This document shows, piece by piece, positions 2,918 through 37,940 of a DNA stretch of 38,139 bases (position 1 is its first letter; the number at the start of each line of letters is the position of its first letter). Source of the DNA: Rheinheimera sp. GTDB lineage: Bacteria > Pseudomonadota > Gammaproteobacteria > Enterobacterales > Alteromonadaceae. Both the position numbers and the translations under genes were made by a program. Below the pieces are notes generated by a model. It saw nothing but the letters and a program-made list of their open reading frames with translations. It had not been told where the DNA came from and made no database searches. The stretch is from positions 1 through 38,139 of the forward strand of contig NZ_JAVBXS010000077.1 of the NCBI RefSeq assembly GCF_030824435.1, written 5' to 3'.

Positions 2918-3534
2918 AATTGACTCCGCTGTATAATGCACTTCACTTCTATAGCCACCAGGTTGTTTTGGCCCTATAAATAATACGTTCATTACCTTGT
3001 CATCAATCAGAACATTCTCAAGTGACAATGAACACTCGATCCCAATAGGTTTGCTTATGGCATTTTGTTTCACCTTTAGCGGCGATTAGAAGTGAGACTG
3101 AAGGTAACCAACTTGCAATAAACCTATGTAACATAATAAAAGTTTTGTTTTATTGCTGCGTTTTCGTTGCTCGGTGGCTTGAATGTGTACTCGCAAGGAG
3201 CAAGGGCGTTCAGTGCAAAAAGTTAACTGGCACAACTCACATGAGCGTAAAAATAGGCCACAATGAAGGGCAGTTCGATTTGGATATTTGAAACAAAAAA
3301 ATAACATATAGATTTTTTGTTTCAAACCAAGCAGTTAAAAAGAGTTCGTTGTACGGCTACAATCGATTTAGGCAATTTATAACGTAAAACCGTGTTAAAG
3401 CCCGATAGGTGATACTTTTTGTGGGCCGAGCCCTCAAAAGTGGCCGAAACCCAGTATTGACGGTGGTTCTAACGTTATTTTCTTCGGAAAGGTTTGTACT
3501 ACCGTTTTGACTTGCAAACTAAAGAACATTAGTT
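2918..3534. other. Gene-free AT-rich stretch downstream of merA
   Basis: No convincing coding region was found on either strand. The open frames present are short, overlap merA or lack a ribosome binding site, and resemble no family I know. The stretch holds one strong AT-rich inverted repeat (listed separately). No recognisable transposase, Tn21-type terminal repeat or integron recombination site was seen. It probably spans the junction between the acquired mer block and the older chromosome. Confidence 0.5.
3287..3326. repeat. Perfect 14-bp AT-rich inverted repeat
   Basis: TTTGAAACAAAAAA (3287-3300) is exactly complementary to TTTTTTGTTTCAAA (3313-3326) across a 12-base loop. The stem contains only two G-C pairs, so it is a weak RNA terminator. 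It could be a protein-binding palindrome or a relic of the mobile-element end. Confidence 0.6.
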
Positions 3535-35195: not shown

Positions 35196-35750
35196 TTATT
35201 CTCCGAGCAGGTCTTTACGCCAGTCGGTCTGTTCCAGTTTACTCAGTGGATCTAAATCGTCTTCTTCTACTTCTTCTTCGTCCAGATCTAAACCTAACAA
35301 AGTTAACAACTCGGCATGACGGGCTGTTTTGGCATTAAAGTACTTGGCGTCTTTCCCTGTCAGGATCTCACCTTGTTCAGTGCGCTCCAGCAAGGTAGCC
35401 AGATGCTCGTCCTGTTCAATCTGCGTCAGTTCAACTTCAGGAGCGATTTCGACCGGTTTAGCTTTCGCCAGTGTGGCTTTTGGCTGAGTGGCAGGCGCAA
35501 CCAGTTTTTGCTCGGCTACAGTCACAACCAATGGAATTGGTTTTTTACTGCCAATACGTGGGTCTTTGTTTTTGTTACCGCTCGATTCAGTTTTATCTGC
35601 CTGCACTGCGGCATTACGGCTGCCGGATTTTAAACCTGCACCTTTTTTCTTGGTTTCTACAGGACGGTCACGTTCCTGGCGGGCTTCAGCAGCCGGTTTA
35701 TGCCTAAGACCAATCTGGCCTGAAGTCCGTGATTTTTTTTTGCGAGTCAT
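35196..35750 (-). CDS. yihI: YihI, activator of the ribosome-assembly GTPase Der
   Basis: A 184-aa homologue of E. coli YihI, which stimulates GTP hydrolysis by Der (EngA) and so tempers 50S ribosome assembly. The basic N-terminus (MTRKKKSRTSGQIGLRHKPA) and an acidic C-terminal region (LDLDEEEVEEDDLDPLSKLEQTDWR) frame a conserved core, NAKTARHAELLTLLGL. AGG lies eight bases before the ATG. It is followed by DUF2489 at 15 bp. The upstream 730-bp gap resembles the E. coli interval that carries csrC. Confidence 0.92.
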   Translation of the reverse strand: MTRKKKSRTSGQIGLRHKPAAEARQERDRPVETKKKGAGLKSGSRNAAVQADKTESSGNKNKDPRIGSKKPIPLVVTVAEQKLVAPATQPKATLAKAKPVEIAPEVELTQIEQDEHLATLLERTEQGEILTGKDAKYFNAKTARHAELLTLLGLDLDEEEVEEDDLDPLSKLEQTDWRKDLLGE

Positions 35751-35917
35751 AATGTCTACCTGTAGAAAAGGGCGCGTATTTTAACCAGTTTTTGCAGCAG
35801 CTGCCTAAGTATTTTACTGTGGTGTTGGTTTAAATGGTGATTTGGGTGATGCGGCAACTGTTTCTCGCCGATGAAAGCAGCGCAATTAACAAGTGCAGCT
35901 TATTAGTTTAACAAGAC

Positions 35918-35955
35918 AAAAAAACAAAACGGCAGTAAGGATTGCCTACTGCCGT
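35918..35955 (-). terminator. Strong - strand terminator upstream of yihI
   Basis: A 9-bp stem, ACGGCAGTA with TACTGCCGT, around a 9-base loop, followed on the - strand by TTTGTTTTTTT. There is no - strand coding gene between it and the cytochrome c4 terminator. It therefore points to a non-coding transcript ending here. Confidence 0.82.
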
Positions 35956-36123
35956 TCAAGCGTTGCACTCAAAGGTGCTGAATTTTTTCATATCGTCCTG
36001 ACTTACGTGAGACACCCTGTCTGGACAGTTTCCCTATATTGTTAGGTCATTTCCCTATTTAAATAATTATTCGCGATCGTCCTAATACTTTTTTAATCTT
36101 CCATGGATCGCGTTAAAAACGCT

Positions 36124-36145
36124 GCATCAGTAATGATGCTTTTTT
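36124..36145 (+). terminator. Terminator-like hairpin on the + strand within the yihI-cytochrome c4 gap
   Basis: A 6-bp stem, GCATCA with TGATGC, around GTAA, followed by six T. It is oriented for a + strand transcript, but no + strand gene precedes it. It could be an internal stem of the proposed - strand sRNA or end an antisense transcript. Confidence 0.4.
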
Positions 36146-36302
36146 AATGTAGCTAGCACTATTGCTGTCCGTGCACATTGTCCGTTTTGTTGAGTTGTTA
36201 CAATCTGTAACGGGGTTTAATTTACTCTGATTCAGCGGAATGGCAATACTGTGATCAAAAAAAAATCATAAAAAAAGTGAACTAATTTCAACAGTCAAAT
36301 TA

Positions 36303-36315
36303 AATCAGATAGTTA
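36303..36315 (+). promoter_or_regulatory. IHF-like site
   Basis: AATCAGATAGTTA matches the IHF consensus WATCARNNNNTTR exactly and lies between the UvrY/GacA-type palindrome and the proposed sRNA promoter, in AT-rich DNA. The consensus is short, so chance is possible. Confidence 0.35.
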
Positions 36316-36379
36316 GCATAATTAATCAGACGAGTTTGCGATATTCGGAAGTTATTTTAAGCTTTTATCGCACGAGCTG

Positions 36380-36397
36380 TGTGAGATATATCTCACA
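36380..36397. promoter_or_regulatory. Perfect 18-bp palindrome of the UvrY/GacA box type
   Basis: TGTGAGATATATCTCACA is perfectly symmetrical. It fits TGTRAG-N6-CTYACA, the pattern of the GacA/UvrY/SirA upstream activating sequence found far upstream of csr/rsm sRNA genes. The half-site spacing (TGTGA-N8-TCACA) is two bases too long for CRP. Confidence 0.6.
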
Positions 36398-36440
36398 TTA
36401 GCGTTAGGTAAATCATGAACTGGCGACCTATCAGACAATA

Positions 36441-36470
36441 AAAAAGCCGGTGACTGACACCGGCTTTTTT
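36441..36470 (-). terminator. Terminator of the cytochrome c4 gene
   Basis: A 12-bp stem, AAAAAGCCGGTG with CACCGGCTTTTT, around a 5-base loop. It is T-rich on both sides and lies 15 bp past the cytochrome c4 stop. Confidence 0.88.
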
Positions 36471-36484
36471 AGACTAGCTGCAAA

Positions 36485-37126
36485 TTAATGCAAACCACCG
36501 AGGTATTTAGACATGATTTCGATGTCTTCATCAGTTAATTTTTTCGCAACGTCACGCATCATACCATTCATATCGTTGGCTCGGGTGCCGGCACGGAAGG
36601 CTTCAAGCTGTGTTTTAATATAAGCTGCGTGCTGGAATGAAATTTTCGGGAAATTTGCCAGGCTGTGACCAACACCACGTGGACCATGACAAGCTATACA
36701 AGCTGCGATACCTCGGTTCATGTCACCGGCACGGAATAATTTCTGACCTGCTTCCACCACATCTTCCGGAGTTGTGCCTGATTTCATCGTTTGGCTGGCG
36801 TAAAATGCTGCCAGATCCAACATATCTTGATCAGACAAGGCTGCAACCATACCACCCATGACAGCATTGCTACGGCCTTCTTTACCACCGCTGGTCATGC
36901 CAAGCTTAAATTCTTTTAATTGTTTATAAATATAACCGGCATGTTGACCCGCAATTTTTGGATACATGTCGGTAGGGCTGTTACCATCGGGACCATGGCA
37001 AGCTGCACAGGTAGCAGCTTTAGCTTTACCTGCTTCTGCATTACCTACTGGTGTAGTTGTTTCAGCGGCAACAGCCTGACCGGCCAACCCTAAAAAAAGC
37101 ATGACTGGAAGTGCGAATTTTTTCAT
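36485..37126 (-). CDS. Di-haem cytochrome c4
   Basis: A 213-aa periplasmic electron carrier that commonly feeds terminal oxidases (cbb3 type in relatives). The signal peptide is cleaved after AVA-A (about residue 20). It has two cytochrome c domains with haem sites CAACH (C40, C43, H44) and CIACH (C143, C146, H147). Each is followed by conserved text (GPDGNSPTDMYPKIAGQHAGYI and GPRGVGHSLANFPKISFQHAAYI) showing the internal duplication typical of c4. Methionine axial ligands are expected in the MGGMV and MNGMM segments. It is divergent from engB, the order known in Pseudomonas and other gammaproteobacteria. Confidence 0.94.
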   Translation of the reverse strand: MKKFALPVMLFLGLAGQAVAAETTTPVGNAEAGKAKAATCAACHGPDGNSPTDMYPKIAGQHAGYIYKQLKEFKLGMTSGGKEGRSNAVMGGMVAALSDQDMLDLAAFYASQTMKSGTTPEDVVEAGQKLFRAGDMNRGIAACIACHGPRGVGHSLANFPKISFQHAAYIKTQLEAFRAGTRANDMNGMMRDVAKKLTDEDIEIMSKYLGGLH

Positions 37127-37307: not shown

Positions 37308-37940
37308 GTGTACAAAGCAAAATTTAATTATCAGCAGACCAGTTTTTTAACCAGCGCCCCGGATATTACTGCCCTGCCGCCAGATACCGGCATTGAAGTT
37401 GCCTTTGCTGGCCGGTCAAATGCAGGTAAGTCCAGTGCTTTGAATACACTGACCAGACAAAATGGGTTAGCCCGTACCAGTAAAACACCGGGTCGTACTC
37501 AGTTGATCAACACTTTCCGTCTGGCTGATGAAAAACGGCTGATCGATTTACCTGGTTATGGTTTTGCCAAAGTGCCGTTAGCGGTCAAAGAAAAATGGCA
37601 AAAGTCGCTTGGTGAATATTTAATGAAACGCCAGAGCCTGAAAGGTCTGGTGGTATTGATGGATATCCGCCATCCGTTAAAAGATTTGGATCAACAGTTG
37701 ATTCATTGGGCGGTAGAAAGTCAGTTATCAGTGTTATTACTGCTGACAAAAGCTGACAAATTAAGCCCTGGTCCCCGTAAAAAAACTTTATTGGAAGTCC
37801 GTGAAGCTTCATTAGCTTTTATGGGCGATATCACAGTGCATACCTTCAGTTCGCTGAGTAAACAAGGTTTAACTGAGTTAGAGCAGGTGCTGGATGAGTG
37901 GTACAGTCGTGACAGCGATGCGTTACAAGGTGCTGAATAA
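37308..37940 (+). CDS. engB: YihA/YsxC (EngB) ribosome biogenesis GTPase
   Basis: A 210-aa essential GTPase needed for late 50S subunit assembly. The G motifs are complete: G1 GRSNAGKS (35-42), G2 region TPGRTQ, G3 DLPGYG (80-85), G4 TKADK and a terminal SSLSKQG (G5 region). The GTG start at 37308 has CGGAG (37297-37301) six bases upstream. A TACACT -10-like element at 37273-37278 precedes it. It is divergent from cytochrome c4 across about 180 bp. What follows to the window end is non-coding. Confidence 0.95.

Follow-up and report, generated by a model that had tools for sequence, protein, structure and literature searches.

The question raised by this locus is what the minus strand encodes between yihI and a di-haem cytochrome c gene (interval 35751-36484) in the window, that is, the whole stretch of 38,139 nucleotides of Rheinheimera sp. 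DNA that was analyzed. An earlier reading, made from the letters of the DNA alone (hereafter the sequence-only reading), had proposed a CsrC-like small RNA (sRNA) at this place. CsrA is a global regulator, and the sponge RNAs that bind it are hard to find and have little sequence in common. Among the literature matches listed, no paper was devoted by its title to a Csr RNA in Rheinheimera.

We estimate a probability of about 93% that an sRNA gene of the csr/rsm family occupies the minus strand at 35918-36397, and that its product would act as a CsrA sponge under the UvrY/IHF mechanism described below. The anatomy of the gene, its conservation in relatives, and the covarying stems of the RNA support this reading, according to which the gene would be transcribed in dependence on UvrY and IHF and its RNA would bind CsrA. 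Several of the features seen in the single sequence are at chance level; the reading as a real gene is decided by comparison across genomes.

Gene organization of the interval

The features of the locus are compiled in Table 1. On the minus strand, the terminator-like palindrome with which the cytochrome c gene ends is followed by the UvrY/GacA box, the IHF-like site, the promoter, the RNA, and its terminator. The sequence-only reading had spoken of a yihI-engB interval: both yihI and an EngB-like gene, a GTPase gene named EngB from its position, are indeed present, but the cytochrome c gene also stands between them. The claim that no protein gene explains the interval was upheld, since the interval contains no minus-strand open reading frame (ORF) of at least 40 aa and the 50-aa plus-strand ORF was dropped for want of a Pfam match. 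The longest ATG-started minus-strand peptide inside the RNA is 21 aa.

Table 1. Positions of the sRNA gene, its putative control elements, and its neighbors in the window
Feature	Position	Strand	Description
yihI	35196..35750	-	Pfam YihI, 113.4 bits; context
sRNA of csr type	35920..36212	-	about 293 nt; ends estimated from promoter and terminator positions; 47-sequence alignment
Intrinsic terminator of sRNA	35927..35957	-	13 pairs
GGA 7	35996..35998	-	identity 0.91 in 46 relatives
GGA 6	36031..36033	-	identity 0.89 in 46 relatives
GGA 5	36052..36054	-	identity 0.83 in 46 relatives
GGA 4	36080..36082	-	identity 1.00 in 46 relatives
GGA 3	36100..36102	-	identity 1.00 in 46 relatives
GGA 2	36168..36170	-	identity 1.00 in 46 relatives
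GGA 1	36181..36183	-	identity 0.98 in 46 relatives
5' hairpin GTTAC-N5-GTAAC	36197..36211	-	three of five pairs changed on both sides
Sigma-70-like promoter TTGCCA-16-TAAATT	36219..36246	-	predicted; conserved block in alignment
IHF-like site AATCAGATAGTTA	36303..36315	+	one mismatch to WATCAANNNNTTR
Possible degenerate second UvrY half-site	36368..36374	-	about 22 bp downstream of box start; degenerate in window, judged by eye
UvrY/GacA binding box (predicted) TGTGAGATATATCTCACA	36380..36397	none	perfect 18-bp palindrome
Terminator-like palindrome	36439..36471	none	3' end of cytochrome c gene, before UvrY box; opposite-strand self-match of the sequence
Di-haem cytochrome c gene	36485..37126	-	Pfam Cytochrom_C, two stretches; context
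EngB/YihA-like GTPase gene	37308..37940	+	Pfam MMR_HSR1; beyond cytochrome c gene; context

Many relatives have a further ORF, some 215 aa long, between the sRNA and yihI; the window is without it. An assignment of this ORF to dsbA was wrong: the one ORF tested (locus L043, 3300-3947) is a methyltransferase according to Pfam. In R. riviphila (locus L037, 1530-2915), the long upstream ORF is that of a sigma-54 activator, which replaces the cytochrome c gene, and the sRNA is kept.

Conservation of the GGA motifs and RNA structure

We compared 80 yihI loci, the best 80 of 133 found, in which close relatives with names were Rheinheimera. The Rheinheimera clade set (49 loci and the window) consisted of Rheinheimera, Alishewanella, Arsukibacterium, Alkalimonas, and some MAGs, and 47 of its 50 members were usable; three loci (L037, L039, and L040), for which the script found no cytochrome ORF, were left out. 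In the alignment across relatives that the sequence-only reading had called for, the GGA positions, the palindrome, the promoter block, and the terminator were found to be conserved, the opposite of the outcome that was to count against that reading.

The seven minus-strand GGA motifs are present as that reading had stated; their number taken alone is at chance level (7 versus 4.9 expected by mononucleotide shuffling, p 0.19), but their positions are strongly conserved. Counting of GGA was rejected as a test, p being below 0.05 in only 5 of the 47 clade sequences, with the window not among them. At the GGA positions, mean identity was 0.94 in the 46 relatives compared with 0.27 for the remaining trinucleotides ahead of the terminator, a value that none of 20000 random sets reached; the 46 relatives are not independent of each other, which holds equally for every alignment column. 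The conserved letters are the GGA cores, with no longer seed. In Rheinheimera faecalis (locus L049, about 3128-3170), a tandem unit of ~21 nt, ATAGGGAATTTGCGTAAAAAT, adds one GGA, as if GGA modules were duplicable.

Structure prediction gave a mean unpaired value of 0.63 for the GGA motifs versus 0.37 for comparable trinucleotides of equal G+C, and the value was higher for GGA in 47/47 sequences. The scan for GGA in loops that the sequence-only reading had proposed gave a mixed picture: the motifs are predicted to be more single-stranded in every sequence, but in minimum-energy folds only 107 of 375 belonged to a hairpin loop or touched one. For GGA 7 of the window, the prediction is a paired state, with an unpaired probability of 0.01. 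The consensus fold consists of four stems with 98.4% of cells paired, and 54 cells were changed on both sides versus 13.0 in shuffles; further pair types in the stems were not above shuffles (433 of 500 reached the observed value). The strong terminator of the sequence-only reading was found and is conserved, its helix having 99.7% of cells paired and four pairs with changes on both sides; terminator-like sites in the region numbered 4 versus 1.9 expected.

A profile hidden Markov model (HMM) was built from 70 sequences, of which 69 came from the 80 loci and one from the window. Its nhmmer match in the window, which is itself among those 70 sequences, spans 36215-35921. The profile matched 80/80 yihI loci, always on the yihI strand, with scores of 39.5-170.5 bits for the 11 held-out loci, the seven Pseudoalteromonas loci among these scoring 65.6-143.4 bits. 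For a wider survey, yihI was found in 112 further genomes among 148 of the order, and 59 upstream regions, two of them cut short (L146 and L186), were picked by hand so that different genera were represented. With a threshold of 8 bits, the profile matched 20 of these 59 regions, all on the yihI strand, compared with none of 1180 shuffled regions; without the terminator, 15 of the 59 still matched, again all on the yihI strand. By family label, the matches were distributed as f1 8/8, f6 4/4, f15 2/2, f21 3/3, f16 1/3, f20 1/4, and f18 1/5 (terminator end only), with 0/30 in ten other families. The profile did not match the csrB of the same genome, E. coli csrC (L114), or the CsrC-bearing region L145.

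The Rfam check proposed by the sequence-only reading lent it no support: no Csr model, CsrB (RF00018) and CsrC (RF00084) included, matched the window interval at the gathering score or up to E 5, a result that fits a diverged member. Sixteen weak Rfam hits of other families (E up to 5) were all below their gathering scores and were set aside as chance.

The putative UvrY box, IHF-like site, and promoter

The perfect 18-bp palindrome noticed in the sequence-only reading is present and is the sole match to TGTNAGNNATNNCTNACA in the window, with no match in any of 100 shuffles; its center precedes the RNA start, as estimated, by about 176 nt. The pattern TGTRAGN6CTYACA was found within two mismatches in 47/47 usable Rheinheimera-clade intervals (window included), 36 of them without mismatch. 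The box of L077 (two mismatches) has a different spacing and is doubtful. Among the loci left out, the box is perfect in L037 and absent from L039; the contig of L040 is cut short. In 30 Pseudoalteromonas intervals, no box was perfect and 26 were within two mismatches, one of which (L088) is far from the usual place. Among the matches listed, a strict box match stands beside the interval in 12 of 13 genomes of the window's genus (G001-G013 of 22 searched), G007 being the one without. The median distance from the box center to the aligned RNA start was 173 nt in both sets, with a range of 110-175 in the Rheinheimera clade and 126-173 in Pseudoalteromonas. The box of E. coli csrB is described as centered at -183/-182 (PMC4682653).

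A half-site, TGTRRG, at 19-26 nt from the box start was exact in 33 of the 47 aligned sequences; for E. coli csrB, a second, partial copy of the box, 5 bp further downstream, has been reported (PMC4682653). The UvrY box is not a wide marker of such genes, since only 2 of the 59 further regions of the order (L145 and L164) had a box within two mismatches followed by a terminator upstream of yihI.

The possible promoter that had been pointed out, TTGCCA-16-TAAATT, lies in a conserved block, but it is one of 3 hits in a scan of the region where 3.0 were expected, so that the single-sequence match is at chance level. Similarly, the match to the IHF consensus, WATCAANNNNTTR, is imperfect; no perfect core was found in the window's interval, and the single-sequence match in the window is no better than chance. 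In the aligned block, a perfect core was present in 17 of 47 sequences at one aligned position, compared with 1.4 of 47 expected anywhere in the segment under mononucleotide shuffling, and 28 of 47 were within one mismatch.

The Csr system of the same genome

Two matches to TGTNAGN6CTNACA, both of which are the identical palindrome, were found in the whole genome, and a reversed control pattern gave one match. The second copy stands upstream of an evident csrB (L003 3325-3713 and upstream; L002 1501-2246 on G000:C85; L003 2968-3713). This csrB has 37 GGAs in a stretch of 566 nt (start estimated) and scored 50.6 bits with Rfam RF00018, below the gathering score of 71. Also present in the genome are CsrA (one match), a UvrY that is 65% identical to its E. 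coli counterpart, and, in a 933-aa frame, a BarA-like kinase (PF09984); the ORF adjoining the kinase is presumably RlmD/RumA.

The sequence-only reading had called its candidate the unannotated CsrA-sponge sRNA of this genus. A Csr-type sRNA is supported, but it is one of at least two, the much larger csrB being at another locus. The two genes share the identical UvrY box and have GGA motifs in common; csrB differs in carrying 37 GGAs rather than seven, in its location, and in being unmatched by the yihI-linked profile. The RNA described here may be regarded as the small Csr RNA that the genus has beside yihI, and it would work alongside the larger csrB.

The Pseudoalteromonas element and Pf3

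The element of Pseudoalteromonas at the cytochrome-yihI locus aligned with the window RNA, and five GGA columns were common to both in an alignment of 10 Rheinheimera-clade and 16 Pseudoalteromonas sequences. Four further GGA columns were present in the Pseudoalteromonas copies and absent from the 10 aligned Rheinheimera-clade sequences. We used 23 of 31 Pseudoalteromonas loci (L082 and L084-L113), eight having been dropped because of a poor box or because the pattern missed the RNA start. Nine GGAs were counted in 13 of these 23 copies and ten in the other 10. The 3' half of the RNA contains AAT/TAA repeats in 23/23 Pseudoalteromonas copies, and AAT repeats were seen in 4/47 Rheinheimera-clade sequences.

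The published account of the sRNA Pf3 of Pseudoalteromonas fuliginea, the gene of which is flanked by D172_RS16045 and D172_RS16040, describes nine GGAs and an active promoter, binding to CsrA in vitro, enrichment in CsrA RIP-seq, and an increase in glycogen in E. coli (PMC11882849). Database matches to Pf3 reported there include TAA/AAT repeats in zebrafish, and outside the genus it mentions one bacterial match (a Thalassotalea), the rest being eukaryotic (PMC11882849). The number of GGAs, which is nine in Pf3 and in 13 of the 23 element copies, together with the AAT/TAA repeats of the element and those in the zebrafish matches of Pf3, suggests that the Pseudoalteromonas element at the yihI locus is probably Pf3. 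The AAT/TAA repeats would also offer a plain low-complexity reason for the zebrafish matches of Pf3.

In Pseudoalteromonas sp. M30B23 (L119, 1661-2006), a GGA-rich candidate for a CsrB-type RNA, with 19 GGAs in 346 nt, is located downstream of a box, CGTAAGATATATCTTACA, and is perhaps Pf1- or Pf2-like; Pf1 is an sRNA described elsewhere (PMC9927453). In one Pseudoalteromonas genome (L200), a third box precedes, as judged by eye, a protein-like reading frame and no GGA-rich RNA; Pf1, Pf2, and Pf3 were therefore not all found in that genome.

Relation to E. coli csrC and alternative explanations

In E. coli K-12, the order is yihA (minus), csrC (plus), and yihI (plus). The statement of the sequence-only reading that E. 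coli csrC lies between yihA (engB) and yihI on the yihI strand was thus correct, and the window RNA, which occupies the equal position, is csrC by position. Common descent with E. coli csrC is plausible. We would give even odds to the wider proposal that a single ancestral csrC beside yihI gave rise to the copies still carried by enteric bacteria, Alteromonadaceae, Pseudoalteromonas, and several further families; the RNA would have kept only the GGA spacing and the terminator, the promoter would have been rewired (to UvrY acting with IHF in the Rheinheimera clade, and in E. coli to a weak UvrY box that works without IHF), and Pf3 would be csrC.

Alternatively, the RNA may be a CsrA sponge and yet no ortholog of E. 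coli csrC, if Csr RNAs arose or moved independently and the side of yihI was reused as a safe harbor; this we hold to be a substantial possibility, somewhat short of an even chance. It would account for the failure of the 70-sequence profile to find E. coli csrC and the CsrC-bearing L145, both of which were detected by the Rfam CsrC model in the tool that gave no match for the window RNA (278.7 bits for E. coli L114; enteric-like L145 also found, in a search of L114 and 19 of the 59 regions). It also agrees with the difference in regulatory set-up, since E. coli csrC is reported to have a weak box and to need no IHF (PMC4682653), compared with the perfect box and IHF-like block of the window, and with the reported duplication and relocation of csrB copies in V. 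tasmaniensis (PMC6262261). No UvrY box within two mismatches was found in the E. coli csrC stretch, and no tie of Vibrio cholerae csrC to the yihI locus was found in the literature text. Independent origin is, however, at odds with the matching placement and orientation of the RNA with respect to yihI and the engB-like gene, and with the profile matches upstream of yihI in several further families, 20/20 of them on the yihI strand. In L164, moreover, the Rfam CsrC model gave a hit of 26.5 bits, below its cut-off of 61, that overlaps a weak profile hit (14.3 bits, lost without the terminator) on the same strand.

A base-pairing sRNA of the Hfq type, with GGAs that resemble Shine-Dalgarno elements and are not CsrA sites, is very improbable. 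The intrinsic terminator with its U tail would suit such an RNA, but conservation falls on GGA cores and not on a longer seed, the upstream box is shared in this genome only with csrB, and CsrA binding has been reported for Pf3, the probable homolog (PMC11882849). Equally improbable is that there is no separate gene and that the RNA is the 5' leader of the yihI mRNA or a 3' piece of the cytochrome transcript. The genes on its two sides do run in the same direction, but the RNA has a strong terminator and a conserved promoter block of its own, a terminator-like palindrome closes the cytochrome c gene, the ~215-aa ORF (a methyltransferase in the case tested, L043) separates the RNA from yihI in many relatives, and the RNA remains where a sigma-54 activator stands upstream instead of the cytochrome (L037).

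Proposed mechanism and significance

As a csr/rsm-family gene, the locus may be expected to operate as follows. BarA would phosphorylate UvrY, which in its phosphorylated form would bind the far-upstream palindrome, and IHF would bend the DNA between palindrome and promoter such that UvrY can activate RNA polymerase. The RNA of ~293 nt would then accumulate and present up to seven conserved GGAs, mostly single-stranded, to CsrA dimers; binding of the dimers would withdraw CsrA from its mRNA targets, which would be released. Control by UvrY is proposed with caution, because some published Csr-type genes escape such control: V. tasmaniensis csrB1 is reported to have a box and yet to be VarS/VarA-independent (PMC6262261), and the predicted csrC of S. 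oneidensis, near mutM, to be UvrY-independent (PMC3171408).

The gene, which is well conserved and was missed by Rfam, adds an unlisted member to a known class of regulators. Its position upstream of yihI and the family alignment provide a handle for finding such RNAs, and the probable link to Pf3 would connect a published sRNA to a wide family. With this comparison, it also becomes testable whether csrC is ancestral and has altered its promoter control from one lineage to another.

Comparison with known Csr RNAs

CsrB1 and CsrB2 of Shewanella oneidensis resemble the window RNA in that they are described as predicted CsrA-binding RNAs with UvrY boxes, their UvrY-dependent expression having been reported for them; they differ in being at another locus and in their larger size of about 420 nt (PMC3171408). 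E. coli CsrC (RF00084) is alike in its setting, with the divergent engB/yihA as one neighbor and yihI following on the strand of the RNA, and has a similar length (246 nt annotated). The window locus is unlike that of E. coli in that a cytochrome gene stands between the engB-like gene and the RNA, and the window RNA has seven GGAs, compared with a reported 14 in E. coli CsrC (PMC11882849).
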